NCBI GenBank assembly: GCA_018389105.1
Contig: JACATO010001163.1
Span: forward strand, 1-64,000
Source of the DNA: Nautilus pompilius
Lineage: Eukaryota > Mollusca > Cephalopoda > Nautilida > Nautilidae
Direction: 5' to 3'
Length of the DNA stretch: 64,000 nt
Part shown: one piece after another, positions 26,235 through 56,302 of the stretch
Layout of the letters: each line of letters opens with the position of its first letter
Position numbering within the stretch: the stretch's first letter is position 1
The notes under the pieces: model-generated
Databases searched by the model: none
What the model was told of the DNA's origin: nothing
Seen by the model: only the letters and a program-made list of their open reading frames with translations
Program-made: the position numbers and the translations under genes

Positions 26235-26266
26235 ATGGCTTCTCGGCCTTCTCTGGCAAAGATCAG
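26235..26266 (+). ncRNA. U2: U2 snRNA 5' end fragment upstream of LINE A
   Basis: ATGGCTTCTCGGCCTTCTC followed by TGGCAAAGATCAG closely matches the first ~32 nt of U2 (stem-loop I and the lead-in to the branch-site region). LINE A starts immediately after GATCA. It is the left junction expected for an insertion into U2 at GATC, in the same orientation as the LINE. A few changes from the consensus (CTTCTCTGG for CTTTTGG) suggest it is old or derived. Confidence 0.75.
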
Positions 26267-27134
26267 TTGGATTTACCCTTTTTGCCTTGCGCAATTGGAT
26301 TTTACAATTGGAAACAGGATTCCTGGAGTACTTTTGAGATCTTGCTGTTTCGTCGACAGGTAAGTCGTGTTTTCCTTTTGGATAAATTTGCATAATTTAT
26401 TCAATTTCTTGGTAATTGCCAATTTTGGGTACTTTGTGTCGATTTTTTTCGATTTTATAGCTTAGACTCCCCTGTTAGTTAGCCTCGCGAACGCTTTGTT
26501 CTTGAAATTTCTAGAATAAGTTTGTGTTTATTTTCGGGTTTCCACGTATTAGGTTCCTCGGAACACCCCGCCGTTAGATAGGAGTTACGTTATTCTAGAT
26601 AGATTATTTTTCTGTTAGATAGAATAAATTTTCAAGTTAGGACTTAGATTATTTTACTGAAAATACTTAGTTTTTTCAGATACAATTTTTGGAAAAAACT
26701 TAGTTTTTCTCCATAGATTTGATAAACACTTAGTTTATTTTTCAACTAAAACTTTAATTTAACCTAGAATTTCTACAGGACTTAGGTTATTTTCTGGAAA
26801 AACTTAGTTTTTTTCAGAACTAAAGACTTAGTTTTTCTCTCACAGTATTTAGTTTACCCAAACCCTTAGCATAATTATTTAACTGGTAAAAACTTAGAGT
26901 TTCTTCTTCCTCTCACATACTTATTCTTGTAAAAACTTAAGTTAATTTTAATAAGAAATCATCCCTTTTCTGAATAATTTTTATTTCATACCTAATACTT
27001 AGTTGCTTTTTAAGTTAGACTTAACTTTGTATTACATCTATTAGGTACATAGTTGTTTTTCCGCTAAAAATCTTAGCCAGGTTTTTGCGGTACCTACATA
27101 TATAATACCCAAAATATACAGTGCCAAAAAAAAG

Positions 27135-28155
27135 ATGGAACCTCAGCCATCTACATCCTCGTACGCAGAATCGGCAAAAAAAGCAACCAATGCCGAAAAA
27201 CTAAACCTAAAGGATTATGAGGGCGAAGAAGGAGAACAATCCTTTAGGGAGTTTCTGCAGGAAATGGAGCTAGATCCCAACAACAAACGTAAGTTGAATT
27301 CGAAGGGAAAAGTTCTTTATTCCTCCACCACAACAGGGAGGTCACGTGTGCAGAAGTCGGGAAGGCACTGCTTGACGCAGGTCTTAACGAGAGAGTACGC
27401 GCCGTCATTAATAGCTATGGCGGCGCAATTGAAATAATCTGCAGCACAGCCAAAAACACCGAGTACCTGTCAACTAAACAGTTGACAGTGAAAGGTATCA
27501 ATTATACTTTAAGAGGAGCCAGCCCGGTGGCGTGGATAAAGGTGAGGGGTTGCCACTAACCACCGGATGTGATATCCCGGACGGGATACTCCAGAAATAC
27601 GGTAAAACAATCGTACCTTTTAAGTACGATTGCCTGCCAGGTCTTCCGTTTCTATCAGGACAAAGAAGCGGGAAGATGATTCTTCGCGAACCAATTCCGC
27701 GAAGAATCAATGAAACTATCGATGGCAAAACCTACAAGTTTACGGTGGTCTACAAAGACCAACCAACGGAACCACCATATTGTAGATTCTGCACTGAGTT
27801 CGGACACACCGAACGAAGCTGCACCGGCAAGAAAACACAAAAGGAACCGGAAAAGGAAGAGACAACAACGCCAACACAAGAAGAGACCAACACTCAAGAG
27901 ATCATTAATATAGAGGACGATGCAGCTCCCAAAGAACCCGGAACAAGAGCCAAGCTCAGAAAAAGGGTAAAGCTGCAAAGAGGATGGTCAGGGAGTCGAC
28001 TCCCCCAACACCACCCAAAAAGAAGGAGAGAAAGCCCAACGAGGAGCCTGAGGAAAAGAACCCCTTGAGGGCTCCAATTCTCCTTTTAAAAAGCTTACAT
28101 CCTCCACTACAACACCGACTCAGGGGTTGCAGAAACGGAGGTGTCTACCTAAGTT
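27135..28155 (+). pseudogene. ORF1 of LINE A, frameshifted
   Basis: It starts MEPQPSTSSYAESAKKATN. The frame shifts near 27315 (continuing as SSLFL..VTCAEVGKALLDAG), again near 27545 (RG | LPLTTGCDIPDG), and again near 27965 (RMVRESTPPTPPKKKERKP). Conserved parts present are SYGGAIEIICSTAK, RGASPVAWIKVRG, KYDCLPGLPFLSGQRSGKM, the knuckle CRFCTEFGHTERSC (C-x2-C-x4-H-x4-C) and a Pro/Lys-rich tail. ORF1 proteins of this group bind the element RNA. At least three single-base lesions separate it from a working frame. Confidence 0.85.
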
Positions 28156-28230
28156 TAGACACTTTTGGCAGGATTTTTTGGTCACAACACAGGTAACGCC
28201 CAAGGGACGAATGCACTAGATTTAGTGATT

Positions 28231-31200
28231 ATGTCAAGACGCATGGAATTATTATCCCTGAATTTAAGAGGGATAAAATTCAAGAAAAACTGGAATGATT
28301 ATCTAGATCATCTGGAACATTCCTCAACAAACACAATAATCTGCATGCAAGAATTACACCTGCAAAATAACACAGAGATAGATAGGTATTTTTCCCGCTG
28401 GTCAGGCCCCAAACTTGCGAGTCTAGACCCTTTAGGTAGGAAAAAAGGCGTAGCTATTCTAATACACCATAGTTTAAATGCAAACATAGAACACTCTTAC
28501 AGTGATAAAAACGGAAGAATCATCATAGCTAGTTTCAAAAATGAGCTCCAAAGAAAAGTGATGATTGCATCGGTGTACGCTCCTACCATTGCGAAGGAAC
28601 GGACAACTTTCTTTCAAAACTTCAATGACATACTAGACCAGGAACTTAGGTCTTACCCTGCAGATGATATTTACATCCTAGGCGATTTTAACTGCGTCCC
28701 CTCCCACGACCTAGATAGGCAGGGACCGGACATTAAAAGCAGGACGCATCTGATCGGAAAAGTGCAGCTGCAAACCATGTGTTCGCGGTTTGGCTTGATC
28801 GATGCCTTTAGATTTAAACACCCGGATAGTAAATCATACACTCATTACAGTAAAAAATACGAAGTAGCCACTAGAATAGACAGAGTGTATGCTTCTAAAC
28901 ATGCTGCTAGATCACTCCTAGACGTTAAGCACGACGTTTTCGCGTGGAGTGACCACTGTCAGGTTAAGGCCAGCTTTCTTGTCCAAGAGAACACCAGAGG
29001 CCCTGGGCTTTGGAAACTCAATAACACTGTTCTGACCGAGTCAGAATACGTTGAGAGCGTACAGAGTTTCTGGGAGCAATGGTCACTTCGACGGGATGAG
29101 TTTGATGACCCCCTGGAGTGGTGGGACCTAGGTAAGGTTAAGCTTAGGGACCTTAGCATAAGATATTGTCAGGCAAGAAACGCTTATAGAGAATACTTAG
29201 AAAATAAACTGAAGATAGAACTAAAACTAGAACTAAACAAGGCCGCTTCAGGTATAGATAGAACAAACAAAATCCAAGCCATCAAAACCCAAATTGGAAA
29301 GTTACAATTAAACAAAACAGAGGGCGCTAGAATTAGGGCCCGAGTACCGGCCATGAATGGCGAAGGTAATAGAATGTCCTTCTGTGGTTTAGAGAAATCT
29401 AGGGCAGAAAGGAAAACCATAAATAGACTAAAAACAAAAGAAGGCCGCGTCTTAACTGACATAGGAGATATCATTCAGGAAGAGGCTCGGTATTATAGCA
29501 ACTTATACAATAGTGAAGACACCTGTCCCATTGCTCAGGACGAGATCTTGGCGTGTCTAGAAGATAAACTAGACCCCCTAGATGCCGAGCTTTGTGAAGG
29601 CCCCCTAACCATTCAAGAAATAAAACAAGCTATTAGAGCTTCAAATAAAGAAAAATCACCAGGAAATGATGGCCTTACGCCAGAATTCTATAAGAGATTT
29701 GAATATCTCCTAGCAGGAGACCTGACAATGATTGCGAATAGCGCATATTGTAGGGGGGTCCTCTCGGAAAGCCAACGTACGGCCACTGTCGTCCTGCTGC
29801 CGAAGGGGGGCGATGGGGAGTACTTGGAAAACTGGAGGCCCATCAGTCTCTTAAACAGTGATTATAAAATCATAGCTAAGGCACTAGCAACCAGGCTAGC
29901 CAAAGTTATGCATAAAGTTACAAGTGCTGATCAGACCTGTTCAGTTCCAGGAAGAAGTATTACAAATACACTTCAACTGTTCAGAGAAATAACAAGTAGG
30001 CTAGACACAGAAAATTCCATAGGAATCATGCTAGCCGTAGATCAGAAAAAAGCTTTTGATAGGGTTAACTGGAATTTTCTCATAGAAACACTTAAAACCC
30101 TTGGTTTCGGGGAGTATTTCATTAACTTTGTTAGGCTATTCCAAACAAATTTAGTAACAAATATATATCAGAACGGATTCCTCTCATCATCCATCCACCC
30201 AACAAGAGGCATCAGGCAGGGGTGTCCCCTCAGCGCCATGCTGTATGTTCTGACAGCGGAACCGCTGGCCGCCATGATTCGCCAGAACAAAGAAATAAGA
30301 GGGATAAATGGTGTCAAGATCCAGCAATATGCTGATGACACCACCCTCCTATTAAAAGATGCGTCCAGCCTGGACGCAGCGTTCAAAATCCTGGAGGTCT
30401 ACGAAAAGGCCTCCGGGGCAAAAATAAACAGAAGGAAGACCACCGCAGCATGGCTGGGGGGCAGTAATAAACCCCTGCGCCAATACAACATCAACTGGGT
30501 GGAAGACAAAATTAAGTTACTGGGAATTTACTTCCCAGTAAAACACAGTACTAATACGCAGCATGAAAACTGGCAACCTGTGATTAATAAAGTCAACGCT
30601 TTACTAACCGCATGGTCCTCGCTAAACCTTTCTTTCTTTACTAAAACTGAATTAGTCAATACGTATCTAGCTCCTAAAATCTATTATAAATCTAAAATAG
30701 TAGGGATGCCAGGCTGGGCGCGTACCGCCATAGACGCCGAGTTAACTCGGTTCCTTTGGCAAGGGCGCAAACACCTGGCAAACAAACAAATAATTAGACT
30801 CCCTCGGAACCAAGGAGGATTAAATCTGATCAATCTAGAGAGCAAAATAGGTGCTCAACAGATACTTAACATAATAGATATCATAAGGAACGTAAATGAC
30901 AGACCAAGATGGCAAAATCTCTTCATCTCCCGGTTAGCGAAAGCATTCGACACCCTCGACGGGGTCGATGTTCTCACTAATAAACTAAAACTATATAGAG
31001 CACAAAGAAACTTACTAACAGACTACACATAACCGCACTCCAGCAATGGATCAACAGCAACATCTCTATAGGAACAGATAACATCGTAAGCCTAGGAGAT
31101 ACTAAAATAAACTAGACAAATTATCCCAGCGAGACATCTACCTCTTCCTGTCGTCACGACCTATAGAGGAACCGAATTACAGGAAGGGGTGGGAAGACAC

Positions 31201-31819
31201 CCTAAACTCAGGAACACTTCCGTGGGACAGAATATGGGCTAGTTCCATTAATCGTCTCGTGGACTGACAAACATCTGACATACACTGGAAATTAATAAGG
31301 AACGTACTCCCCACAAGGGAGAAGAAACACAAATGGAAACTAATAAATTCACCCAAATGCCTCGCCTGTCACGAGGTGGACGAAACCGCAATCCATTGTC
31401 TATTTTCCTGTCCGCAGAACATAGAACTATGGTGCCTAGTCCGAGATTTGATTTTCAAAATTAAGAGTCCCCAGAACAAACTTACGTCGTTCTGGCGCAT
31501 CTTTGGATTCAACAATAGAACTAAAAAGGACTGCCTTTCGAACTTTTTGGTCTTTACCGCCCAGCGGATTGCTTGGGGTAGCCGAAAGGCTTTAGAAGGC
31601 GGCCAGCCTACCTCAGCAAAATTACTATTCCAAAATTATGTAACTGATTGGTTACACCAAAAATATGCAGTCATGAAATCCAGCATAAATGACAGACAAA
31701 TTTTCTCATCCACCTGGCTAATTAATGACGCATTAGGACAGATCGACAACAATAAAATTTTACACATACACCTTGACAACCCTCCAACTTCAACACCTAG
31801 TTTAGATCAACCACCCTGA
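28231..31819 (+). pseudogene. ORF2 of LINE A: endonuclease-reverse transcriptase, late lesions
   Basis: By homology the start is MSRRMELLSLNLRG (28231), inside an open frame from 28165. EEP endonuclease residues ~1-245 include QEL (catalytic Glu ~41), GDFNC (Asp ~152) and SDH (241-242), all intact. RT follows at ~490-760 with LLPKGGDGE, WRPISLLNSDYKI, DQKKAFDRVNW, GIRQGCPLSAMLY and QYADD (YADD ~700-703). The frame runs open for about 934 codons to 31032. A single missing base after LLTDY then ends it early. A second shift near 31110 and a TGA near 31266 follow. The C-terminal knuckle CLACHEVDETAIHCLFSC and the end SLDQPP (31819) are still readable. Confidence 0.9.
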
Positions 31820-32381
31820 GTCACCTCCCTTCCAACCCTATGTATAATTGAATATATCTTTCTTTTAAGTTCAATATAGGATGCTGAAAAAGAAGACTCT
31901 CTAAAATTCTTTTTTCTCTTCTCTTTTCTTATTACTCTTTCTACTTCGTGATCTTGTGCATACATTGTGATTACCATAATGCATTAACTTGAACACTCAT
32001 TGTGTTTAATAAGTTTTATTAAGAAATAATCAATTAACGTTTCTTCTTAAATGATCTCTGATCATTTTAAAACAATAACTAAAAAACTAAGTGGAACTTT
32101 TTATCTTTAAACTAAGTGGAAATTTATTATCTTCAACCAAACTCCCACCCCCTCCCCTTATTTCAGTGTAAGCCTCTATTTATTTATAAAGTTACCCCAC
32201 CCCTATATCATCACATGGACTAACCATGAGTCTTTCTTCATTGCAAAAATAAAACACACACAGTCCCAAAGAAGAAGACCAAGACACAAGTAACAGCTAT
32301 GTGACGTGGAATGGGGCAGAGGATGTTGTGATGACAATCAACACAACAGACTCTACTACTTCCCAGAATAGTCACCTACAT

Positions 32382-32473
32382 GGGAACCTCTGGTTCTCCC
32401 ACGTTGGAATAAAGAAAATAGCAAAAGTCATAAAGACTTTAAAGCTATAACATCAAGAGAATCTCCGATTCTC
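32382..32473 (+). other. Pair of short hairpins in the 3' UTR of LINE A
   Basis: GGGAACCTCTGGTTCTCCC (32382-32400) and GAGAATCTCCGATTCTC (32457-32473) are consecutive stem-loops with a TCT/TCC loop, each followed by CCCAYG. Element D has GGGAGCCTTCGGTCCC (55820) and GGGAATCTCTGATTCCC (55881) at the same place, so the stems are kept while the bases differ. Confidence 0.6.
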
Positions 32474-32628
32474 CCATGAGGGAGGACTGAAAAGGAAGAA
32501 GCAAACGGAGGGAGAACATGTCTCCATCCATCACCCCGCAAAAATAAAAATAGAACTCTCTCCATCCTTCCATTTTTGGAAACTGAAAAATAAACAGTGG
32601 CCCAAACTTCCCTTTCAGTACAAGGACA

Positions 32629-32710
32629 TACAGAGAGAAAACTCTGTTTCTAGAGAGTTCAGCCAGGACAAACCTACCCCTCCTGCGTGCAATACGAAGG
32701 AGTTGGGTAG
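32629..32710 (+). other. Conserved 3'-terminal stem-loops of LINE A
   Basis: A first hairpin CAGAG-AGAAAA-CTCTG (about 32631-32646) is followed by a second, CTACCCCTCCT...AGGAGTTGGGTAG (32674-32710), then GCCCGCTGCTCTC. The same order recurs in E2, E3, E4, B, C and D near the tail. It is a candidate recognition structure for the element's reverse transcriptase. Confidence 0.6.
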
Positions 32711-32893
32711 CCCGCTGCTCTCGCTAGGCTGAGGAACACTTTTAAACAAAACAAAGGTCGAAATAAGGCCTCACTTATAAACAGCTGAGACGGCCGGTCG
32801 TGGAACCGATCCAGCTACACCCACATACAAACGCAACCTAACAAACACTCCCCTAAACACCGCACAACACCAAAAAAAAAAAAAAAAAAAAAA

Positions 32894-32920
32894 GATCAAA
32901 GTGTAGTACTTGTTCTTATC
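32894..32920 (+). other. U2-derived spacer between LINE A and LINE B
   Basis: The sequence from GATCAAAGTGTAGTACTTG to CTTATC equals nucleotides ~28-54 of U2, with TATC changed to TACT. It matches the minus-strand U2 copy at 13467-13441 otherwise base for base. It follows the poly(A) of A and precedes the head of B directly. It therefore represents the target copy left by insertion A and used by B. Confidence 0.85.
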
Positions 32921-32997
32921 ACCGGATTTTACCTTGTGACGTCTCGGAACCCGCATTGCGGCAGTACCAGACCATCTCTCGGACAGCACGTCGATCG

Positions 32998-33800
32998 GTA
33001 AGTACCTTTTCTATTGCTGTAATTTTTCGCGTGTGCATTTCTGAATTTTCCTTACTGTGCTTCCTCTGTAATTTACTAGACTCCCCTGTTAGCCTGAAGC
33101 ACGATCTGTCTGCTGTGTATATTACTAGGCTAGTTAGGGCTCTGAAATTGTTTAGGCAAGCCGCGGCCGGACACTGGGTCACCGCGGGGTAAGTCCGACA
33201 GGACACGACTTATAGATCCTTTAAGGTGTTGACACCAAGTATTACCACCCACCCGTAGACGCGTATATATAGAATAAGTTAAACTAGCTACCTTAAGAGT
33301 CACAGGACTCAGAAAATTTTAGATACGTAAAAATCTTAACATAGGAGTCTTTGCACTCCGTACACATAATTTGTACAAGCCCAGAGCTTCGGAGGCCAGG
33401 CCCCCTATATATATAGCATAGGAATACCAGGTTGCGGACATAGAATTATTTTTGCCAGACCAGATAAATTGTAAGAGTCTATAGAGACTTAAATCCTCTC
33501 CCTCATCCACGTCCGTTAAAAAACCTCTCACCCTTAAGGTAAGTAAAAACATCCGCGTTCTCAGCCCTATCTGTCACTTCAACTGTTTAGAATAGCTAGG
33601 AATAACTCTTGGGCATCTTACTACTTAGGCATAATAGCATAGCTAGAATAGTAATACAACGATAACAAGTCCCAAGAAAAGGATAGGGTTAATTCTCACA
33701 CAGTAGACAAATCGCCACCACACCAGTTCGAATCCCCAGCACCGACCCACCTACCACCTCAGCCCCCTCCAGCCCCCCCACCTCTTCTCTTTTTCTATAG
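32998..33800 (+). other. Putative leader intron of LINE B
   Basis: Donor ATCG|GTAAGTACC at 32998. Acceptor with the pyrimidine tract CCACCTCTTCTCTTTTTCTATAG ends at 33800, about 115 nt before the ORF1 ATG. Both sites fit the U2-type intron consensus. The intron would remove almost the entire non-coding leader. Confidence 0.45.
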
Positions 33801-33915
33801 CACCAAGCCGCTCCTTGTAACCAGAGACTAAGCCGCTTAGCGACTGCCCGCAGTCTCGCCAGCAGAACAAAGGAGCACAGCCGGGGCAATTAGCGGACCA
33901 AGCACACAAAAGGAG

Positions 33916-35064
33916 ATGGAGCCCCAGCCATCTACAAGCTACAAAACAGCCGCCGAAACAACAAAGGCGACGACTAATCCCTCAAAGGACAATGGGGACC
34001 AGGTAGGAATGCCGTCCTTTGAGGAATTCCTCAGAGAGCTTGAGCTGGACGCTAAGGACGCGTCCAGCCTGAAATTTGAGAGGCGTAGCTCTCTCTTCAT
34101 TACGCCGGCCACTGACGTTTACTGTGAGGACGTCGGGAGGGCACTAAGCCAGGCAGGACTGCTCCCAAAGGTCAGAGCAGTCATTCCAAGTTACGGGGGG
34201 GCGATAGAAGTTATCTGCCGCACTACCCGCGACGCGGAAGAGCTCTGCACCAGGGCACTGACAGTCAAGGGTATTCACCACGTCATGAGGGGGGCATCGC
34301 CCCTAGCGTGGGTAAAGATAAGGGGTTAACCCCTGACGACGGGCTGCAGGGTACCGCAGCAAATACTTGAGAGGTATGGGCAGACGCTAATTCCGCTCAA
34401 GTATGACTGCATACCCGGGCTTCCGCTCCTCTCAGGGCAGAGGAGCGGAAAGATGCTCCTACGGGAACCTATTCCTAGGAGAATAAGAGAAACAGTAGAC
34501 GGTAGAACGTACAGCTTTTCAGTTTTCTACCGAGATCAGCCGGCACCCCCGCCATACTGCCGAATCTGCCGGACAACAGGGCACACGAGATTCAGCTGCC
34601 CAACGGGGGCTGAGAAGGAACAAGAGGTAAGTAGACCTAGGCCCCAAAAGCAAGACACGGTGAGGCAGGCCACAACCTCCCAACCAAACCAGCCGTCCAA
34701 CAAAGAACCGGACAGCCCGGCGGAAACACCGCCTAACGTCAAACAGGAGGACCCGGGGGAGGGACGCAAGGAACCCCCCGATGAACCCCAAACGCCAACA
34801 CCATCGGAAGGGGAAGACGACCTAGTCGTCGTATCCGTTAGAAAACCCCATAGGGGCAAAGGCCCCAAAAGATCCGTCAGAGATGCCAACCCACCAACCC
34901 CGCCCAAGAAGAAGGAGAGGAAGGTGGAAAGGCCCCAGAAGGAACAGGGGGAAAAGCCCCAAGAGGTGGCCACGGAAAAGCCCAACATGGCGCCCACCGT
35001 GGTCCTACAAAAACTGACACCCCACATGCCTCAAGGGGCTGAAGGCATGGAAGTGCCCACCTGA
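33916..35064 (+). pseudogene. ORF1 of LINE B, one in-frame stop
   Basis: 382 codons from MEPQPSTSYKTAAE to GAEGMEVPT. The only defect is a TAA at 34327 in the conserved RGLPLTTGC segment (a single change from a Leu codon). Domains: low-complexity start (1-30), MPSFEEFLRELELD, a folded core with SYGGAIEVIC and SPLAWVKIRG (RRM-like in look), YDCIPGLPLLSGQRSGKM, the zinc knuckle CRICRTTGHTRFSC (C-x2-C-x4-H-x4-C), then a Pro/Lys-rich tail with a nuclear-signal-like PPKKKERK. Expected role: nucleic-acid binding of the element RNP. ORF2 starts 78 nt after the stop. Confidence 0.9.
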
Positions 35065-36101
35065 GGGGTGTCTTCCTTTTGGACGGATCTTTCGGAATCG
35101 AATAGGGAACTGAACACGGATTGTGATTTTTGAAATCTGAATATGTCTAGACGCCTGGAAATCTTATCCCTGAATTTAAGAGGGATAAAATTTAATAAAC
35201 ATTGGAATACCTACCTAGATCAACTGACACACACCACACACGATAGAATAATATGCATGCAGGAGCTGCACTTGCAGTCTAACCAGGAGGTAGATAAGTA
35301 TTTCACCAAATGGCATGGACTAGCGGTAACCAGCCTAGACCCCATAGGTAGAAAGAAAGGTGTAGCGATCCTCTTCCACCCGAACATGCATCCAAAAATA
35401 GAACACACCTACAAAGACGACGGACGGACGGATCGTCATAGCCAGCTACCAAAACCAGCTCCAAAGAAAAGTAATGATCGTATCGGTGTACGCCCCTACC
35501 GTTGCGAAGGAGCGGACAGCGTTCTTTCTGCGCTTCAATGATATCTTAGAGCAGGAACTTAGGTCATACCCTGCAGATGACATACATTGCAGGTGACTTC
35601 AACTGCGTCCCCTCCCATGAGCTAGACAGGCAGGGGGCAGACATTAAAAGTAGGACGCATCTGATGGGAGCGCCACAACTGCAGACCATGTGTTCGCGGT
35701 TTGGCCTGGTCGATGCGTATAGATATAAACACCCAAACGCGCTGTCGTACACTCACTATAGTAAAAAGTATAGTGTAGCAACTAGACTGGATAGAGTGTA
35801 CGCATCTAAACACATGGCTAGGCAACTCCAGGACGTGGTGCACGACGTTATCGCGTGGAGTGACCACTCACAGGTTACGGCCGGCTTCTTGATTCAAGCG
35901 AATACCAGAGGACCCGGATTATGGAAGCTCAACAACGCTATTCTGACCGAGTCGGAGTACGTCGAGAGCATCCAGAACATCTGGAGAGACTGGTCCCTGC
36001 GCAAAGACGAGTTCGCCGACCCCCTGGAGTGGTGGGACACAGGTAAGGACAGAATAAGGAACTTTAGCATAAGGTACAGTCAGGCACCTAGTGCATATAA
36101 G

Positions 36102-36109
36102 GTCTACAT
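36102..36109 (+). repeat. Left target-site duplication of the hAT-like element
   Basis: GTCTACAT here and at 39009-39016. It fits the 8-bp nTnnnnAn preference of hAT transposases. Element D, without insertion, reads AAGGTCTACGTAGAATC at the same place (53176). Confidence 0.9.
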
Positions 36110-36235
36110 TAGGGTGGTCCATAAAATCGAACATCTGAATTTCTTTGCTCCCTGGCCTGATTCTGTTTCCATTTAGGTAAAAAACATTGTATGCAAAATT
36201 TGAAACCAATCAAATAATATTTAGAGGTGGCTCAA
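36110..36235 (+). repeat. Left terminal inverted repeat of the hAT-like element
   Basis: 126 bp ending GAGGTGGCTCA. It is inverted relative to 38871-39008, identical over the outer 11 bp and over AAATAATATTTAGAGGTGG inside, with small indels between. Confidence 0.85.
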
Positions 36236-36242
36236 CAGTCTA

Positions 36243-36500
36243 CAAGTTTTGAGATTTTCCTTCATAGCGCATATTGCATCATCTTCTGATGCGCCAGCAT
36301 GTAAGTGTTGCATCATCTTTTATCAGCCATTCAGTTCATCACTAGACTCGTCTGTGAGAGGTTGCTAAGGTGTTTCCCTTGTGTATTTCTCAACAAGTTC
36401 TGAGATTTTCCTTCATAACGCATATTGCATCATCTTTTATCAGCCATTCAGTTCATCACTAGATTCGTCTGTGAGAGGTTGGAAAGGTGTTTCACTTGTG
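36243..36500 (+). repeat. Subterminal direct repeat in the hAT-like element
   Basis: Two copies (about 36243-36390 and 36391-36500) share GAGATTTTCCTTCATA.CGCAT, TTATCAGCCATTCAGTTCAT and CGTCTGTGAGAGGTTG. The first copy has about 40 extra bases. Subterminal repeats often bind transposase in this class. Confidence 0.7.
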
Positions 36501-36526
36501 TCTTTCTTCCCATATATTCCTTCAAG

Positions 36527-43220: not shown

Positions 43221-44144
43221 GTAAGTGCGGTTACACTAACCCAATCCGTAGCTCATCATTGATACGTAAATAGTAATTCCCCCGAGGAACAAATAAAGCT
43301 CGCATATTGTTAGTTAGATATCCTAGGCTTGTTTTCAGGTTTAGATACAGGTGGCATTTGCATAGGTAGGCTAGATCTGTCCCCTTTTTTCCTTTTTCAA
43401 CTCATCGCGTAGTATAGACACCACCTGCCATATTGTAATTTGTAAGCCTATATAGGCATATCGGAGACTGGTCTTTATAGAGTTAACGTCCCCCCACCAT
43501 TTCCACCAAATCTCCGCTTAGCATCTATTTATAGTTAGGTTTATTTTTATCTCTCTCCTAGTTTAGAAGTGCGTGATTTAATTGTAGGTCCCCCCTCCCC
43601 TCCTCCTAGCTTAGCGTAGTCAGCCATTTTGTTTTTAGTTCATCCACGCACGTGGTAACTTTTAGCTCCGCGCCCGTCTGTCTGTCCTTGCTGCTCTCTT
43701 CTCGTGCTTGCCGCCGCCTAGGAGGCCGTGTTACCAATAAAATAGTCAAATAGGCATTAATCCCGGCAGCATAATTTTAATTTCAGATAGCGCGCTATAA
43801 ACATTCAGTTAGCTCGGCATCGCCGATACATCCACCGCCACGTGCTCGCGTGCACTGGCACCCATCTGTCTTAACCGTTAGTCTTTGTGTTGTTTTGTAG
43901 CTGTATCATAACTCTTTTCTGACTCTTACTTACCCTTCCCACCTTGTCTATACCCTCTGTAGCGCCCCACCTCACCCCCCCCCGTTTCGCTGTCCCGATC
44001 TCCTCCTTCTTTCTATCCGTTCCTTCCATTTCCTAATCCACCGCCATCCCACCTCTCTAGCCACCATCCGTCCTTCCTTCATCTCCTAATCTCTTTCTAT
44101 CGTCCTACTCGACTCTAGTAGGTGCTTATTTCGGGTTTCTCTAG
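43221..44144 (+). other. Putative leader intron of LINE C
   Basis: Donor CGAAAG|GTAAGTGCG at 43221. Acceptor either TCGGGTTTCTCTAG at 44144 or GACTCTAG at 44118, the latter aligned with CTCTCCAG in E3. ORF1 ATG is 12 nt after the nearer acceptor. Confidence 0.45.
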
Positions 44145-44155
44145 CCCACAAAGCG

Positions 44156-45373: not shown

Positions 45374-45458
45374 GCGGTGTCGCTTCGTTTTGGACGGGCA
45401 CAAAACCCCCGATTTCGAAGTAGGATAACGTGAACTGAGATGTGATCGATTTAAGACC

Positions 45459-48400
45459 ATGCGTAGATTGGAATTTGTCTCCCTCAATTTACGAGGGATC
45501 AAATTCAATCGCCACTGGAACTCTTTTCTCGATCAACTTGAAAACTCCACACAGCCCCTCATAGCATGCCTCCAGGAACTACATCTAAACTCACAACATG
45601 AGGTAGACAGGCACTTCGCTAACTGGACAGGGTGCATGCTCACCAGCCTCGACTCCACAGGTAGGAAAAAAGGTGTAGCTATCCTTTTCCACCATAGTTT
45701 AAACGTAAGATTAGAACACTCTTACAGTGATAACGACGGTAGGATCGCGATCGCTAGTTACCAAAACGAGCTCCAACGACAAGTGATGACAGTTCGATAT
45801 ACGCTCCCAACGTTGCGAAGGAGCGGGCGGCGTTCTTTCAGAGCTTCAACGACAGGCTAGAAACTGAACTTAGGTCATACCCCGCCGACGATATTTATAT
45901 TCTAGGCGACTTCAACTGCGTACCCTCCCACGAACTAGACAGGCAGGGTCCCGACATTAAAAGTAGGACTCATCTGGTCGGCGAACCGCATCTGCGAACC
46001 ATGTGTTCCAGGTTCGACCTCGCCGATGCCTTCAGATTTAAACACCCGGACGCGAAAGCGTACACATTACAGCAAGAAATACCAGGTAGCCACTAGAATA
46101 GACGGGCTGTACGCTTCTAAACTCGCCCTTAGACAGCTCCAGAGCGTCTCGCACAACGCCATCCCGTGGAGTGACCACTGCCAGGTCCAGGCGAATACCA
46201 GAGGTCCCGGTGTATGGAAGCTCAACAACGCTGTTCTGACCGAGTCGGAATACGTCGAGAGCATCCAATGCATCTGGGGACTGGTCCCTTCGCAGGGCCG
46301 AGTTCGACGACCCCCTGGAGTGGTGGGACGCAGGTAAGGCTAGACTAAGGCAATTCAGTAAAAAATACTGTCAGGCGCGCAGCGCATACCAGCAATATGT
46401 AGAAGCTAGCCTAAAAGCAGACTTAAAAACAGAACTAAACCAGGCCGCAATAGGATTAGATAGGACCGGTTCTATTAAAGCCATTCAAACCGAGTTAGAC
46501 AACCTGCAATTAAACAAAACGGAAGGCGCTAGAATTAGAGCCCGAGTACCGGCTATGAACGGAGAAGGGAATAGTCGGTCCTTCCGTGGTTTAGAAAAAT
46601 CCAAGTCAGATAAGCGATCTATAAATAAACTGATAAACCAAGACGGCCTCATCATCTCCGACATGGAGCAAATACTTAGGGAAGAGTCTCGGTACTATAA
46701 AGAACTTTATAGTAAATCGGACACATGTCCGGTAGCTCAGGACGAACTCTTGGCGTGTCTAGAAAATAAACTAGACCCCCTAGACGCCGAACTCTGCGAA
46801 GGACCCCTAACCATCCAAGAAATAAAACAGGCCATTAGGGCCTCAAATAACGAAAAAACCCCAGGAAACGACGGCCTTACGCTGGAATTCTATAAAAGAT
46901 TCGAATATCTTCTAGCTAAGGACCTGACAGACACTGCGAATAGCGCACACAGTAAGGGGGCTCTCTCGGAATCCAGCGTGTCGCCACGATCACTTTGCTC
47001 CCGAAGGGAGGTGACGCGGCGCGCCTGGACAACTGGAGGCCCATAAGTCTCCTAAATAGCGACTATAAAATAATAGCTAAGGCGTTAGCCAACAGGCTAG
47101 CAAAAGTCTTAGATAAAATCATAGGTGCCGAACAAACCTGTTCAGTCCCCGGCAGGAGTATCACCGATACCCTCCAACTGTTCAGAGAAATCACCAGTAG
47201 ATTAGACACGGAAAGTTCCATAGGTATCATGTTAGCCGTAGACCAAAAGAAAGCCTTTGATAGGGTAGACTGGAACTTTCTCTTTAAGACACTTAAAACC
47301 CTCGGCTTCGGGGAGTACTTTATCCGCTTCATCCGACTCCTTTACACTCTTCCTTCCACTCAGATCCTCCAGAACGGTTTCACGTCACCGTCGTTCCACC
47401 CAACCAGGGGCATCCGTCAAGGGTGTCCCCTCAGTGCCATGCTATACATCCTGGCTGCGGAACCGCTGGCGGCGTACATCAGGAAGACCACCACCATCAC
47501 AGGCATCGAGGGAATAAAACTCCAACAATATGCAGATGATCTGACACTGCTACTCCGAGACGAAGATAGCCTCCGCGGAGCCCTCGATGCCTTGGAGCTT
47601 TACGAGCGAGCCACCGGAGCCAGCATCAACAAAAAGAAGACACAGGCAGCATGGCTAGGGGGCACCGGCGGTCCCCGAGAAAAACATGGTCTAACGTGGG
47701 TGGACGACCAGATCAAACTTCTGGGGATCTACTTTCCGACTAAACACACCGCAGACACCCGCATGAACAACTGGAACTCCACTGTTAACCAAATCACCGC
47801 CCAACTAACTGCATGGTCCTCACTCAACCTCTCCTTCTTCACCAAAACCCAACTCATTCAGACCTTTTCTATCCCCAAAATCCTTTACAAATCCAAGATT
47901 ATCGCGATGCCAGGCTGGGCGCGCACCTCCATAGACGCCGAGTTTGATCGGTTTCTGTGGCAGGGGCGCAAACACCTGGCCAACAAACAAATAACTAGAC
48001 TACCCCGAAGCCAAGGAGGGCTAAACCTTCCAAACATAGAGAGCATAAACGGTGCCCAGCAAATAATAAATATAGTTAATATCATAAGGAACATAGGCGT
48101 TAGACCAAAATGGCAAACACTTTTTCTTGATAGGTTAGCCAGGGCATACAGGATCCCGCATGGACTGCATGCCTTAACCGCGAAACTAAAACTATATAGA
48201 ATACAGAAAAATATACTCACCGACTATCACGTAACTGCTATGACTAACTGGGTGAAATCAGACATCAACATCACAGGTAATGAGGTAAGCTTAGGTTCAC
48301 ACAAAGTTGACCTTGCAAAATTGTCCCAGCGGGATGTCTACTTCTCCCTGGCGTCACGACCTATTCAGGAACCGGACTACAGGGGGAAGTGGCAGAACGC

Positions 48401-49019
48401 ACTCAGCTCAGGCCCGCTTCCATGGGATCGGATATGGAGTTCTTCCATCAACCGCCTCGTGGACGGGTACACGGCCGACGTCCACTGGAAGACCCTCAGA
48501 CACGTTCTCCCCACTCGGGAGAACAAATTCAAATGGAAATTAATTAACTCATCAAAATGCCTCCACTGCAAGGAGGACGACGACACGGTACTACACTGTA
48601 TGTTCTCATGTCCGAGACACATAGAGCTGTGGTGCCTAGTCCGCGATTTGATCTTCACCATTAAAAGTCACCGGGACAAACTTACTTTGTTCTGGCGCAT
48701 CTTCGGCTTCAACCATAGAACTAAAAAGGACTGCCTTTCGAACTTTCTGGTCTTCACCGCCCAGCGGATTATTTGGGGTAGCCAGAAGGCTTTAGAGGGC
48801 AACCAACCCACCTCAACCAAAACTCTATTTCAAAACCACGTAGCGCATCGACTACGACAAGAGTGCGCAGTCATGTGCTCCAGTGCAAACGACCGGCTGA
48901 TGTACGCGGCCACGTGGTTAATCAACGACGCCTTGGGCAAGTTGGATGCCGCCGGCCGTCTTCAAATCAGCCCGCTCCTGCTACATCAACCAACGACCAT
49001 AGTAGACCTCCCTCCCTGA
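45459..49019 (+). pseudogene. ORF2 of LINE C, few frameshifts, long intact C-terminal half
   Basis: Starts MRRLEFVSLNLRGIKFNRHW; the EEP motif is CLQELHL (catalytic Glu). Frameshifts lie near 45793 (after QVMTV), near 46064 (before YSKKYQVATR) and near 46287. GDFNCVPSHELD and WSDHCQV are present. The segment from 46555 reads open through RASNNEKTPGNDGL. A one-base loss near 46977 (SES|VSPR) shifts it. From 46995 a 674-codon frame is open to the natural stop, with LLPKGGDAARLDNWRPIS..-type start, DQKKAFDRVDW, GIRQGCPLSAMLY, QYADDLTLL, and C-terminal knuckle CLHCKEDDDTVLHCMFSC (C-x2-C-x8-H-x4-C). It ends DLPP at 49019. About four single-base lesions in all. Confidence 0.9.
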
Positions 49020-49985
49020 GCTGTCCGGCGACCACCCATAGGGCGACGCCTCGTCACCCCACGGCACAACCACATCTCGCCGCACCTACTGACGCCAACG
49101 TCAACACGGTGACAGGCAGACACTAGGGAACCACGGAGCTACAAGCCATTCATCAAAACCGATTCGCCTGTCAATCAAAAGAGGATAATAGAGCCGCCAA
49201 CCGACTGGCCGTTAGCCAATCAAAGGTCACCGCTCTACACCTTCAATGAATGACGAACACCCACAAGATACACTCCCAAAATTACAATACTCCCCACGCC
49301 ACACTTTATTTATAACTTGGCCCCCCCTTTCTTTCTATCTATATCCCCACAATGCCGGTGGATTAACCGTTTTCTCTCTCTGTTGCTGTTCAGTGACGCT
49401 GCGCGACAGCGCCAACAGCGTCGACAAAATGACATCAACAACATACTATGAACAGAACGGGGTTGAGGAACGGGGTTCCTGTCTGAGCGATGGAATACCA
49501 ACGCACCGACAGGAACTACTTCCCAATAATTTTCTGGCTCCCCAACGCGGGACGCGCTGAAAAACATCAGCCAAAAAACACACATCACCAAGAAGTCCTG
49601 CGCAGTAGACGGAGGGAGAAGCGTCTCCATCCACTGCTGCATCCAACAAAGAAAATAAATTAAAAACAGATCCCCCCACCCCGCCTCCGGTTGGACAACC
49701 AAAAAATAAATTGTGGCCCTTTCACCTCCACCCCCAATTAGAAATAAGGACACACGGGGAGACAACTCTGTTCTAGGGAGTGCAGCCTGGAGAAACCTAC
49801 CCCTCCTGCGTGCAATACGAAGGAGTTTGGGTAGCCCGCTGCTCCCACTAGGCTGAGGTACATGAAAACAAAACGATCGTAAATAAGATCTCACCTAAAC
49901 AGCTGGGCGGCCGGACGTGGATCCGACCCAGCTCGCACCACACAAACACTAAAGACAAACACTCCCCCAAACACCGCACACACAC
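49020..49985 (+). other. 3' UTR of LINE C
   Basis: Non-coding; a 194-codon minus-strand frame here is not real. It contains a perfect short hairpin GGAACGGGGTTCC (49467-49479), then GGGGAGACAACTCTG, then the tail hairpin CTACCCCTCCT..AAGGAGTTTGGGTAG (49797-49834) and GCCCGCTGCTCCC. Confidence 0.7.
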
Positions 49986-49999
49986 AAAAAAAAAAAAAA

Positions 50000-50020
50000 G
50001 ATCAAAGTGTAGTATCTGTT
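50000..50020 (+). other. U2-derived spacer between LINE C and LINE D
   Basis: GATCAAAGTGTAGTATCTG and the next two bases match U2 exactly, immediately after the poly(A) of C. The following GTACCACTTGGATTTTACC belongs to the head of D. Confidence 0.85.
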
Positions 50021-51007
50021 GTACCACTTGGATTTTACCGTGCGACGTCGTGGAAACTGCATTGCGGGATTACTCGGCATCTATTTTCGAACAGCGCAAC
50101 GAAAGGTAAGTATACTGACTTTCTTGCTGTGAATTTTTCTGTGCAATTTTTGGAATTTCTTGTGCTTCTCAATCTCTAGATCAGACTCCCGTGTTAGTTA
50201 GGAAGCACGATTTGTCCGCTGTGTCTTTTCGTTAGAATAAATAGGGCTCTGAAATTGTTTAGGTCGGCAGTGGACGGACGCTAGGTCACCACTGAGTAAG
50301 TCCTGTGGGGCGGTACTTCTAGCCCCCCGTAAAGTCTTTGACTCCCGCATCACCACCCCCCTTAGCGCCGCGAACATAGTGTAACCCAGATAGTTTCATT
50401 ACCTATAAGAGTCAGGTGACTCAGCTTTCTTAAGTTGTAAAAGTCCAGAACTTTGGAGTGCGTACTCCTACCCCTGATAGACACCCCATAGATTTTAGGA
50501 CTTAGATTTTCTTTCCACTCCCCGCACAGAATAACTGGTAAAAGTCAACAAAGACTTAGATACTTCGCATCTTCCGTCTTCCAGTAAAGAAAAGCTTATA
50601 CTTCTTAACCTTGTCTTTAACTTTTCTCTCTTTCTCTCCCCTAAAAATCTTAGAATAAAAACCACGCGTAGTCAGTCTTAGTTGTAAAAACCCCTGGTAT
50701 ACACATAATAGCTCCATAGCGTTACACAGAAACATTAGAACCAGGGTAAAATACAACATAAATAAACGTACATAGCCACACAGCGGGCAAATCGCCACCC
50801 TCACCCTAGATAGTTCGACTCCCGCAGCGTCCCACCCTCCCCCGTGCAATAAACTTCCCCTCCGACCCCCCCCCCCCTCTTACTATCAACAACTCTGCCA
50901 CTCCTTGGAATTTGACACCTCGGAGGATTAGCCAGGCCAGCCAGCGGCAGACGAGAGGACAAAGGGAGCCAGCCGGAATTTCAACAAGCCGCACCCACTT
51001 CAAAGCG

Positions 51008-52139
51008 ATGGAACCCCAGCCATCGACCAGCACCTACGCCGCCGCCGCCGTAAACAATACGGCCACAGTGACACCTGCCACGAAGGACAATGGGGCAAGG
51101 AATGACATACCGTCCTTCGGGGAATTTCTGAAAAAACTTGAGATGGACCCCCAAGATGCGTCCAGCCTCAAATTCGAGAGCAAGAGCTCCTTATTTATTA
51201 CGCCGGCCTCCGGCGTCTTCTGTGACGACGTCGGCAGGGCCCTGAGCCAGGCCGGCCTTCTGCCACGCGTCAGAGCGGTAATCCCCAGCTACGGCGGGGC
51301 AATAGAGGTCATCTGCCGCACAACAAAAGACGCTGAGGAGCTTTGCACCAAGGCCCTCAACATAAAGGGAACCAGTCACGTCATGCGAGGGGCCTCCCCC
51401 CTCGCATGGGTAAAGATAAGGGGTCTCCCCCTAACAACAGGTTGCAGGGTACCCCAACAAATTTTGGAGGAGTATGGGCAAGTCCTCATACCCTTCAAAT
51501 ATGACTGTATCCCGAGGCTTCCGCTTCTCTCAGGACAGAGGAGCGGAAAAATGCTGTTAAGAAAACCCATACCCCGTAGAATAAGGGAAGTAATAGACGG
51601 CAGAACGTATAGCTTCTCCGTGTTTTACCGGGATCAGCCCGCCCCGCCACCATTCTGCCGCATGTAGGACAACGGGACATACCCGCTTCAGCTGTCCGAC
51701 AGGAGCGGAACGGGAACAGGTAAGCGACCCGCACCCCCAGACCACCACGGAGGGCACAAGAGCGCCCGAACCCAAGGGCGGGCAACAGAAAAAACAGACA
51801 ACACCTACACATAACATCAAGGAAGAAGCGCCTGAAGAGGTGGGGAAAGACCCGCCTGAGCCCCTCACAACGCCACCTGGCTCTGACAAAGAGGACGACC
51901 TGGTGGTCGTCTCTGTCAAGAGACCGTCCCGGTCCAAAGGACCGAAAAGGACAGTACGGGACTCCAACCCGCAGACTCCACCGAAGAAGAAAGAGAGGAA
52001 GGTGGAGAACACCCCCACGGCGCCCAAACAGCCGAAGGACGTCACCACGGAGAAGACCCACATGGAGCCCACCGTGGTGATCCAGAAAATAGCCCCTCCC
52101 AAGACTCAAGGGGCTGAAGGCATGGAAGTGCCCACCTGA
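51008..52139 (+). pseudogene. ORF1 of LINE D, frameshifted in the zinc knuckle
   Basis: MEPQPSTSTYAAAAVNN to the knuckle is a clean frame of 220 codons, with the core SYGGAIEVICRTTKDAEEL and RGLPLTTGCRVPQQ. At 51660 two bases are missing after CRM, so the second knuckle Cys is lost and a TAG follows. The other frame continues TTGHTRFSCPTGAER and carries the tail to GAEGMEVPT (52139), including the basic PPKKKERK, with no further obvious stop. Very close to ORF1 of B. Confidence 0.88.
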
Positions 52140-52219
52140 GAGGTGTCACTTCCATTTGGACGGACCTTTCGGCATCGATTAGGAAAACGACCCTGGATTA
52201 TGATTCTTGATTAATGATT

Positions 52220-55200
52220 ATGTCTAGTCGCTTGGAAATCTTATCCCTGAATTTAAGAGGGATAAAATTCAACAAACATTGGAATACCTACCTAGATCAA
52301 CTGACACACACCACACACGACAGAATAATCTGCATGCAGGAACTGCATCTGCAGTCTAACCAGGAGGTAGATAAGTATCTTACCAACTGGCATGGACTAG
52401 CGGTAACCAGCCTAGACCCCATAGGTAGAAAGAAAGGTGTTGCGATCCTCTTCCACCCGAACATACAACCAAAAATAGAACACACCTACAAAGACGACGA
52501 CGGACGGATCGTCATAGCCAGCTACCAAAACCAGCTCCAAAGAAAAGTAATGATCGTATCGGTGTACGCCCCTACCGTTGCGAAGGAGCGGACAGCGTTC
52601 TTTCTGCGCTTCAATGATATTCTAGAACAGGAACTTAGGTCATACCCTGCAGATGACATTTACATTGCAGGCGACTTCAACTGTGTCCCTTCCCATGAGC
52701 TAGACAAGCAGGGGGCAGACATTAAAAGTAGGACGCATCTGATGGGAGCGCCACAACTGCAGACCATGTGTTCGCGGTTTGGCCTGGTCGATGCGTATAG
52801 ATATAAACACCCGAACGCGCTGTCGTACACACATTATAGTAAAAAGTATAGTGTAGCCACTAGACTAGACAGAGTGTACGCATCTAAACACATGGCTAGG
52901 CAACCCCAGGACGTGGCGCACGACGTTATCGCATGGAGTGACCATTCCCAGGTCACGGCCGGCTTCTTGATTCAAGCGAATACCAGAGGACCCGGATTAT
53001 GGAAGCTCAACAACGCTATTCTGACTGAGTCGGAGTACGTCGAGAGCGTCCAGAACATCTGGAGAGACTGGTCCCTGCGTAAGGACGAGTTCGCCGACCC
53101 CCCTGGAATGGTGGGACACAGGTAAGGACAGAATAAGGAAGTTTAGCATAAGGTACAGTCAGGCACGGAGTGCATATAAGGTCTACGTAGAATCTAGACT
53201 TAAAGAGGAACTAAAGCTAGAGCTTAAACAGGCCGCTTTAGGGCTAGACAACAAAGATAAAATACAAGCCATCCAAACCAAGATCAACCACATTCAGGTA
53301 GACAAGACAGAAGGAGCGAGGATTAGGGCCCGAGTACCGGCCATGAACGGTGAAGGTTGTAGGAGGTCCTTCTGTGGCTTAGAAAAAGCAAACGGGGATA
53401 GGAAAACAATAAATAAACTAATAAACAAAGACGGTCAGACCCTCACAAACTTGGAGGATATCCTAGATGAAGAGTCTCGGTTTTATAGTGAACTATACAC
53501 TAGAGAAGACACTTGTCCTTCAGCTCAGGACGAAATCTTGGCGTGTCTGGAAAATAAACTAGACCCCCTAGATGCCGAACTCTGCGAAGGCCCCGAAAAC
53601 GTAAATGAGGTAAAACAGGCTATTAGGGCCTCAAATAAAGACAAGACTCCCGGAAAGGACGGCCTTACGCTAGACTTTTATAAGAGATTTGAATATCTCC
53701 TAGCAGACGACCTGACTTTCGTTGCGAATAGCGCATACAGTAGGGGGGTTCTCTCAGAATCCCAGCGTGCCGCCACCATCGTCCTGCTACCGAAGGGGGG
53801 CGACGGGGCGTACCTGGAGAACTGGAGGCCCGTAAGTCTCCTAAATTGTGACTATAAAATTATTACCAAGGTGCTAGCAAACCGGCTAGGCAAAGTAATC
53901 GGTAAAGTTACGAGTGCACACCAGACCTGTACAGTTCCTGGCAGGAGTATCACGAATACCCTCCAGCTGTTCAGAGAAATTACAAGTAGGCTAGACACGG
54001 AAAATTCCCTTGGAATTATGCTAGCCGTTGATCAAAAGACAGCATTTGACAGGGTAGATTGGAATTTTCTGATAAAAACACTTAAAGCCCTCGGCTTTGG
54101 GGAGTACTTCGTTAATTTCATCCGCCTTCTCTACAGAGACATCACCACACAGATACAGCAAAACGGTTTCCTCTCTTCGCCTATCCACCCAACTAGAGGC
54201 ATACGGCAGGGATGCCCCCTGAGCGCCATGCTCTATGTCCTCACTGCTGAGACGATGGCGGCCTACATCCGCTCTAATGGCAACATTAGGGGTATAGGTG
54301 GCGTCAAAGTCCAGCAGTACGCAGACGACACGACGCTATTCCTGCAGGACATGGATAGCCAGCGTGGGCGCGTACCGCCATAGACGCCGAGATCGATCGG
54401 TTCCTATGGCAAGGGCGCAAACACCTGGCGAATAAACAGGTAATTAGACTCCCCAGATGCCGTGGAGGGCTAAACATAATAAACCTAGAGAGCAAAACAG
54501 GTGCTCAACAAATTATAAATATACTAGAAATCTTAAGTACCACTGAGAATAGACCAAGATGTCACCAGCTACTCCTAGACCGCTTAGTTAAGGCATACAA
54601 CACCCCCGATGGGTCGCATGTCTTAACTAACAAACTCAAACTATACAGAGCACAGAAAAACATGCTAACAGACTACCAGGTTAGCGCCCTCACTAACTGG
54701 ATCAAGTCCAACACAGACATAACACACAGCATGATCTAGAACAATTATCCCAACGTGATATATACTTCTTCCTGTCATCACGCCCGATCACAGAACCGGA
54801 CTACAGGGGGAAGTGGTAAAACACCCTAAATTCAGGCCCACTTCCATGGGATAGAATTTGGAATAGCAGTATAAACCGCCTCGTGGATGGATACACGTCT
54901 GACATACACTGGAAAATTCTAAGAAACGTACTCCCCACCAGGAGAACAAACACAAATGGAAGCTTATTAACTCACCGAAATGTCTCAGATGTAATGAGGA
55001 GGACGAGACGGCACTACATTGTATATTCTCATGTCCTCTGAATATAGAACTGTGGTGCCTAGTCCGCGACCTGGTATTCAACATTAAAAGTTCCCTGGAC
55101 AAACTTAGTTCATTCTGTCGCATCGTTGGCTTCTCACCTAGAACTAAAAAGGACTGCCTTTCAATCTTCCTGGTTTTCACGATAGCTTGGGGTAGCCGAA

Positions 55201-55472
55201 AGGCTTTAGAGGGCGGTCATCTCACTTCAGCCAAAAGATTATTTAAAAATCACATAACACTTTCGTTACGACAAAAATACGCAGTCATGAAGTCCAGTAT
55301 AAATGATAGAGTAATCTATTCATCCATCTGGCTCATCAACAGCACCGTTTACAACTACACCCTGACGTCACACCATCCTCAAAACATCACCTTAGACCAA
55401 CCCCACCCTACCCTTGTCTTTCGTCACTCCCTTTCTTTTGTTTCAGATGAAACTAATCTAGAAGACTCTTAG
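52220..55472 (+). pseudogene. ORF2 of LINE D with RT deletion
   Basis: Family start MSSRLEILSLNLRG (52220). The endonuclease domain is complete and open to about 53095: MQELHLQ, VYAPTVAKERT, GDFNCVPSHELD, WSDHSQV. An extra C (GACCCCCCCTGG) then shifts the frame. RT is open 53343-54357 with GIRQGCPLSAMLY and QYADDTTLF. At 54358 the text jumps from LQDMDS to AWARTAIDAEIDRFL, losing about 337 bp relative to B, with a GCC microhomology at the joint. Many shifts follow. The C-terminal knuckle CLRCNEEDETALHCIFSC remains. The stop after LDQP is lost and the frame runs to 55472. Confidence 0.88.
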
Positions 55473-56302
55473 GAACAGAAGACTTCTCTCTACTTTTCTT
55501 GCTTTTTCAGCAATTTTGTAATTTCAGAATCTTTAAGACGACCTGTGGAGATCTTTTGAAATCCTAAATCTTGCTATAATTTCAATTCCACCCCCCCAAC
55601 CAACTTAACCCCCTCCCCTCTATCAGTGCAAGCCTCTATTTATTTGTAAAGTACTCCTCCCCAAACATCAACCCCGTAAATGGACTAACCAAGTTTCTGT
55701 CTTCGTTCCTACTATCCACCCTTTACAGTCCAAACTAACATCAAAGGATTTTCAAAAGAAGACGGTGGTGTGGAATGGGGCGCTGGCCGCTAGGCTACTT
55801 CCCGGCATTTCCACCAGCCAGGGAGCCTTCGGTCCCCCTACGTGGGATGATCACATGATCACCTCTAAATATTACCATCTGGGAATCTCTGATTCCCCAA
55901 CGTGGGAGGACTGACCACCACAAATTAGGAAACGGAGGGAGAACGTGACTCCATCCATTTTTCACCAAAAAAAAATAAAAAATAGAACCCACCCCACCTC
56001 CATACTCCTGTTGGATTTAATAAAAACAAAAGTGGCCCAAACTCTCCCCTCTCAGCTTCTAAGGACACACAGAGAGAAAACTCTGTTCCGAGGGTTCAGC
56101 CTGGAAAAATCCTACCTCTCCTGCCGTATTTACGGAGGAGTTGGGTAGCCCGCTGCTCTCACTAGCAATAGGTACACATACACAAAACACGGGTCGAAAT
56201 AAGGCCTCACTCATAAACAGCTGTGACGGCCGAACGTGGAACCGACCCAGCTCCCAACACACAAACACAACCTTACACACACCCACCACCTCAAAAAAAA
56301 AA

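Follow-up and report, generated by a model that had tools for sequence, protein, structure and literature searches.

LINEs stacked head to tail on a surviving U2 snRNA gene stub in the genome of Nautilus pompilius

The closest described relatives of the arrangement reported here, a head-to-tail array of long interspersed nuclear elements (LINEs) in a U2 small nuclear RNA (snRNA) gene of Nautilus pompilius, are Keno and Utopia. Keno (Kojima and Fujiwara 2004, as presented in the part of PMC4640811 available to us) is a LINE with an apurinic/apyrimidinic endonuclease (APE) that resides in the U2 snRNA sequence, and in both respects the Nautilus elements resemble it. The features of Utopia that recur in Nautilus are, according to the same part of PMC4640811, residence in U2 genes, several coexisting lineages, an excess of broken U2 genes over intact ones, tandem insertions seen occasionally in one wasp family, and U2 arrays holding different families. 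Utopia differs in its restriction-like endonuclease (RLE), its insertion at nt 39 and the absence of any U2 5' stub found in Phytophthora (PMC4640811, same part). The persistence of five LINE families with about 10 intact U2 genes was considered hard to understand by the Utopia authors (PMC4640811, same part). SINEU (Kojima 2015, known to us through citations) is a short interspersed nuclear element (SINE) with an snRNA-derived head, a property found also in Nautilus.

We analyzed the first 64,000 nt of the forward strand of contig JACATO010001163.1 (assembly GCA_018389105.1), hereafter the window, together with the whole genome (727.6 Mb, 2558 contigs). A preliminary description, made from the letters of the window, had proposed four LINE copies in one orientation, aimed at the U2 sequence. 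The arrangement is real and widespread: site-preferring APE-type LINEs are piled up behind a U2 stub that has survived, and the U2 gene concerned is an amplified variant. In comparison to Keno, the 3' flank lies approximately 15 nt further upstream and the copies form stacks on a re-used stub, not reported for Keno in the available part of PMC4640811. Unlike in Utopia, the stub persists, the target is an amplified variant, and the canonical U2 is intact.

In the window, four APE-type LINE copies follow one another head to tail in a single orientation between positions 26235 and 56302 (+ strand), downstream of nt 1–26 of a U2 gene. The stub (26235..26260, +; ATGGCTTCTCGGCCTTCTCTGGCAAA) comprises nt 1–26 of the host variant, named here U2v, and its letters and genome matches mark it as the re-used landing site. 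The stretch 26235–26265 reads ATGGCTTCTCGGCCTTCTCTGGCAAAGATCA and represents a genuine U2 5' end ahead of copy 1, as had been noticed earlier; its 20-nt core was found in 75 exact and 24 one-mismatch places of the genome, whereas the core read backwards (control) was found once. Copy 1 (26261..32893, +), copy 2 (32894..43117, +; split by a DNA transposon) and copy 3 (43118..49999, +; beginning GATCAAATAG) end in poly(A) runs of 22, 8, and 14 A, which meet GATC at 32894, 43118, and 50000, respectively. From nt 27 onwards, the match to the host U2v is exact for 15, 7, and 21 nt at these three joints. The U2 joints claimed previously at 32894 (32894..32923, +, between copies 1 and 2, diverged beyond the exact part) and 50000 (50000..50029, +, between copies 3 and 4) could thus be confirmed, and the poly(A) of both continues into GATCAAAGTGTAG. 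The claim that every poly(A) is followed by GATC had to be restricted to the three inner joints: the tail of the distal copy 4 (50000..56302, +) lacks GATC and meets (A)AGTGTACAGACTCACG instead. Loose matches to the joint 13-mer (up to three mismatches) were not in excess within the window (17 versus a shuffle mean of 20.3), so the case depends on the three exact matches, on their placement after poly(A), and on the genome counts.

The reading frames are preserved to various extents. In copy 1, ORF1 (open reading frame 1; 27135–28130, +) is frameshifted and ORF2 is open at 28231–31032 (+), continuing at 31112–31816 in another frame; in copy 3, ORF1 (44156–45370, +) is uninterrupted and encodes 405 aa, and ORF2 (45462–49019, +) is frameshifted. 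Judged by broken frames alone, no clear age gradient was visible along the window stack.

The insertion point lies between nt 26 and 27 of the host U2v (GGCTAA on one side, GATCAAAGTGTAG on the other) with the poly(A) facing the 3' side. Should the AA preceding GATC be part of the target, the nick would fall between nt 24 and 25, and the poly(A) masks which of the two applies. The preliminary description had advised an assembly-wide search for poly(A)–U2 junctions and for U2 5' ends followed by LINE heads. The search for A7-GATCAAAGTGTAG returned 57 joints, and none with the backwards control, which supports the targeting of the U2 sequence. Thirty of them were fetched and led into LINE heads (17), SINE heads (seven), U2v 3' sequence (five), or nothing clearly assignable (one, L001). 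ORF1 was within reach in 16 of the 17 LINE-head joints (exception L004). LINE tails also abut U2v 3' halves.

The state of the U2 genes themselves was assessed with the Rfam U2 model, for which 20 genome matches were listed (46 of 54,827 first-look candidates scored). Among them there are two canonical U2 genes, both intact and forming an inverted pair on contig C2023, one intact U2v gene (L033 on contig C1704), and ten U2 3' parts behind poly(A)-GATC (L034–L038, L041–L043, L045, and L048), L035 being the one from the window; the remaining seven are A-rich-preceded, retrocopied, or degenerate copies. The canonical U2 5' core occurs in three genome places, one of which is an unrelated sequence. 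The occupied target is mainly U2v, a separate amplified variant, and the two canonical genes found are intact. One degenerate U2-like 3' part (L046, C1817:107298-107472, 65 bits) lies beside a strongly diverged ORF2 (27–42% identity) and may indicate that U2 has been a target of insertion for a long time. At L051 (reverse complement, approximately 3298–3640) and L033, the U2v 3' half with about 110 nt of native flank continues without a break into a LINE ORF1, with TTTCAG as the acceptor at the boundary, which might reflect a long duplication or a captured leader.

The use of the stub was analyzed at 30 of the 99 places with the U2v core. Twenty of them carry a promoter block, the stub, and a LINE ORF1 within 1.5 kb; of the other ten, eight are SINE-like copies with a dispersed location and two form a tandem pair of 1285 bp on contig C30. 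In the 20 loci and the window, all the 500-bp upstream sequences group into one cluster, whereas the heads behind the stub fall into five clusters (seven at stricter length). GATC directly follows the stub in 16 of these 21 units, GATT or GACC in four, and neither in one. That dissimilar heads start at one position behind a common upstream sequence is most readily accounted for by independent insertions there, and the earlier proposal that later copies land on the target remnant of previous ones gains support.

The stub belongs to a repeated macro-unit. Its spacer (query stretch 20400..24500, +) gave 43 listed matches (38 of 205 candidates scored), counting the window's own sequence, the separate pieces of three copies, and two hits of 28 bp; at least 29 near-full-length copies at ≥94% identity are among the matches listed, which is a lower bound. 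The distal flank of the stack (56303..59300, +), also a part of the macro-unit and lying beyond the fourth poly(A), which runs into (A)AGTGTACAG, was represented by at least 40 matches to 56310–59300 including the window, the others being 94–98% identical (40 of 260 candidates scored). Sixteen stacks bounded by the stub core (with one mismatch in three of them) and the distal flank span, by coordinates, 8.0–42.4 kb (median 24.5 kb), and all 12 exact joints inside them share the orientation of the stack. The 21 distal ends read (20 loci and the window) share both the LINE tail, that of copy 4, and the flank that it meets; L101 and L103 show small changes. The common tail indicates that the distal LINE end predates the amplification of the unit, and the turnover is visible beside the stub. 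Given the common distal tail and the varied stub heads, LINEs probably insert repeatedly at the stub and older copies are pushed downstream.

Altogether, we consider it highly probable that APE-type LINE lineages insert at U2 nt 26/27 and re-use the stub, building stacks in the amplified U2v. Several L1/Tx1-like lineages would insert there by target-primed reverse transcription, with an endonuclease presumably specific for this point. The upstream stub, nt 1–26, would remain and GATC would be regenerated, with duplications of approximately 4–7 nt before some heads and of up to 20–29 nt of U2 before others. The kept stub and the regenerated GATC would make the site usable again, so that a new LINE could land between the stub and the older LINE, shifting the older ones downstream into a head-to-tail stack. 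Such stacks would sit in U2v, whose stub, promoter block, and spacer are parts of the macro-unit. A 61-nt block at 26176..26236 (+) is common with the flank of the intact U2v gene L033 (88.5% identity over 61 nt); its position resembles that of an snRNA promoter, and it may correspond to a proximal sequence element (PSE). Comparison of the window with L033 (blastn at 1e-5) revealed no similarity further upstream than this block. The LINE nearest to the promoter would be transcribed from the U2 promoter.

The U2 head is not confined to LINEs. SINE-like elements of approximately 300–620 bp carry U2v nt 1 to 23–39 at their 5' ends, and no LINE ORF match was found within 1.5 kb of the seven SINE joint loci. 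The eight dispersed SINE-like copies start within U2 nt 1–4 (ATC in four, ATT in one, only TC in one, and nt 4 in two); no macro-unit was visible upstream of any of them, and TAAG, resembling the U2 point TAA/GATC, lies at most 30 nt ahead of the start in six of the eight. These starts suggest RNAs which begin at the U2 start site and may insert at U2-like places. By its description in citing papers, SINEU differs from the Nautilus elements, whose head carries the landing site and which succeed one another at GATC joints. U2-headed SINE-like elements were seen at L024, L017, L029, and L002, and L024 contains three successive poly(A)-GATCAAA joints approximately 0.6 kb apart. On C30, positions 1396638 and 1397923 (L053 and L054), a promoter-like U2v block with SINE-like sequence forms the 1285-bp tandem pair, adjoining LINE ORFs of the opposite orientation; this pair is a possible master copy. 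A further-reaching scheme would treat the promoter and 26 nt of a dispensable U2v, amplified in the macro-unit, as an attachment site receiving LINE after LINE, with the newest copy transcribed from the U2 start and the older ones buried downstream, the U2-headed SINE spreading portable landing sites and the canonical U2 left untouched. Taken as a whole, this scheme is tentative, and we regard it as possible rather than probable.

Several observations weigh against repeated insertion at the stub as the full account. An 18-nt motif of the LINE tail has 547 exact genome matches, and at least 64 of these have (A)6GATC(A/T) behind them at the distance tested. Of 20 dispersed tails taken from the first 100 in the list, all on contigs longer than 100 kb, not one reaches GATCAAAG or has a U2 flank; GATC follows in two and G follows the A-run in 15. 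In the preliminary description, copies elsewhere lacking U2 flanks had been named as evidence against a U2 target, and these 20 of 20 tails partly bear this out: relatives with this tail also insert elsewhere, and the U2 specificity may be a preference or may be confined to some lineages. Furthermore, the U2-like prefix of most class-2 heads measures 29–31 nt and shows lineage-specific changes behind different tails, which implies that some of this prefix travels with the element and was not newly duplicated at the target. No class-2 head was seen at the stub in the 21 units. Insertion may also occur at internal joints, in addition to the stub. The common distal end and the spacer fit the amplification of an already stacked unit as well. 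Copies 2 and 4 are 94–96% identical in the middle of ORF2 and 54–91% identical elsewhere, a mosaic indicating that exchange between copies occurs too, perhaps as template switching between the stacked lineages. As to the samples, the joints and the stub loci fetched were the first 30 listed of 57 and of 99, respectively, with no random draw; the 20 stub loci were selected for sharing the unit, and the stack of the window is the one read through, the others being defined by coordinates.

One alternative holds that U2 is no longer the true target and that LINEs and the SINE, carrying U2 5' ends, insert into each other's heads at the A-run/GATC, a landing site that they bring themselves. It draws on the near-constant length of the lineage-specific prefixes behind different tails, on the U2-headed SINEs dispersed on large contigs, on the LINE-type tails joined to the SINE GATCAAAGTGTAG in L018 and L028, and on the successive copies in L024. 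The 21 stub units with a real U2v stub and promoter block, and the LINE tails adjoining U2v 3' halves, speak against it, and we find it unlikely. The view that the U2-like joints are wholly fresh target-site duplications was rejected in part, since identical changes in the U2 letters recur in class-2 heads that follow different tails.

The Pfam domains Exo_endo_phos (APE), RVT_1, and zf-RVT are spread over the ORF2 frames. The copy at L051 (contig C437) has both frames open (ORF1 of 377 aa, ORF2 of 1193 aa), and among solved structures in PDB its ORF2 matched best the human L1 ORF2p (5.5e-76), with R2 far weaker (1.1e-21), which fits the L1/Tx1 group and speaks against an RLE element. A C-x2-C-x4-H-x4-C (CCHC) motif was seen in ORF1 by eye. 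No RLE family exceeded the Pfam cut-off (EcoRV, E 0.044, 13.7 versus 25 bits, in the reverse transcriptase region of copy 4). By these predicted domains, we assign the elements to APE-type LINEs of the L1/Tx1 group, with L1 and Tx1 not separated.

Membership in the Keno lineage, suggested in the preliminary description, gained no support. That the elements are Keno in the strict sense, i.e., of the U2-specific Tx1 clade, would agree with the APE-type, L1-like ORF2 with zf-RVT, the CCHC motif in ORF1, and the U2 target, although the latter is not used strictly. The position of insertion disagrees with it. According to PMC4640811, the U2 sequence downstream of Utopia starts at nt 39, and that downstream of Keno is the same. 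This published point corresponds to nt 42 of the host U2v, approximately 15 nt downstream of the point used in Nautilus, where the flank starts at nt 27; one exact pattern for the published site, A7-TCTGTTCTTATCAG, gave no match in the whole genome, so insertion at that site was dropped as a candidate after this single pattern. A strict Keno identity is quite improbable. The Nautilus site is apparently a second point of U2 at which APE-type LINEs insert. The literature searched, in the parts available and not including the original Keno paper, reports neither the nt 26/27 point nor such stacks beyond the occasional tandem Utopia.

A stack produced mainly by tandem duplication and unequal exchange of one LINE in a repeated locus is a weaker alternative still. 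The amplified macro-unit, the single distal LINE tail in 21 of 21 ends, and the near-identity of copies 2 and 4 in mid ORF2 speak in its favor, but the remaining five copy pairs are 41–85% identical (400-column windows), and exchange would not give dissimilar heads at or near the same U2 position in 21 units; on this divergence of copies and heads, simple tandem duplication was rejected, and a stack of mainly this origin is very improbable. An identity with Utopia, for which the U2 target and one family occasionally found in tandem could be quoted, has practically no chance of being correct, as Utopia carries an RLE and inserts at nt 39 (PMC4640811, available part) and the Nautilus elements have an N-terminal APE and another U2 site.

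The pattern extends in the window beyond 26235–56302: the plus strand has one more joint, at 14225, and the minus strand carries a U2 3' part. The latter (13297..13467, −; nt 27 to the end of U2v; Rfam RF00004, 122.5 bits, match 13297–13473) lies directly behind poly(A). The sequence ahead of this poly(A), at 13467 (−), resembles a LINE 3' untranslated region in the opposite orientation, perhaps a product of 5' inversion. A LINE head (12343..13247, −) stands behind poly(A)-GATC (13247) with the ORF1 frame at 12343–13182. Six other genome places repeat this order of U2v 3' half, 33-nt native flank, poly(A/G), GATC, and head; 3' transduction was considered for the seven, and duplication of one unit explains them equally well. 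On the plus strand, a LINE 3' tail with an A-rich end (14047..14224, +) reaches the further GATC joint, followed by a LINE head with internally deleted LINE relics (14225..17980, +), starting GATCAGATAG. Next comes a LINE relic with ORF1 and the ORF2 start (18700..20333, +; end at 20333), and, past the spacer, ORF1-like relics of the macro-unit lie upstream of the U2v promoter block (24640..26150, +). COX1-like fragments were noticed on many macro-unit contigs (e.g., G000:C1116:67138-67941), with at least 117 COX1 matches listed in the assembly; apparently, mitochondrial DNA was amplified along with the macro-unit.

The transposon that splits copy 2 (36110..39008, +; 2.9 kb) has TAGGGTGGTCCAT as its terminal repeats and a duplication of 8 bp, GTCTACAT. 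Its 502-aa ORF matched no Pfam family, and it is hAT-like by the duplication length only. All four window copies contain a 5' splice-site-like GGTAAGT/GGTGAGT (26359–26365, 32997–33003, 43220–43226, and 50105–50111). The same motifs lie 71–107 nt inside 17 of 17 LINE heads at joints, GGTAAG occurs within the first 200 nt of 15 of 20 stub heads, and ORF1 of some LINEs is preceded by an acceptor-like TTTCAG/TTACAG. The U2-dwelling LINEs may thus carry introns in their 5' leaders.

Two other systems offer parallels. The telomeric arrays of HeT-A and TART in Drosophila are also head-to-tail LINE stacks in which the newest copy occupies one particular end, as is proposed for Nautilus; they are built on a chromosome end, in contrast to the snRNA gene stub used here. 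R5 reportedly occupies infrequently transcribed 28S genes of planaria and is likewise a parasite in a variant of a gene family, differing in the rRNA target and the type of element. The intact canonical genes and the separate amplified variant strengthen the earlier idea that the stack acts as a safe haven, which is an interpretation.

The Nautilus stacks offer a concrete and testable answer to the puzzle raised by Utopia. The target would not be exhausted, as the stub outlasts each insertion and the occupied genes belong to an amplified variant. The apparent second APE-type point in U2 is useful for asking how LINE endonucleases gain site preference, and the arrangement points to a way in which parasites can persist on a scarce target that they do not exhaust.

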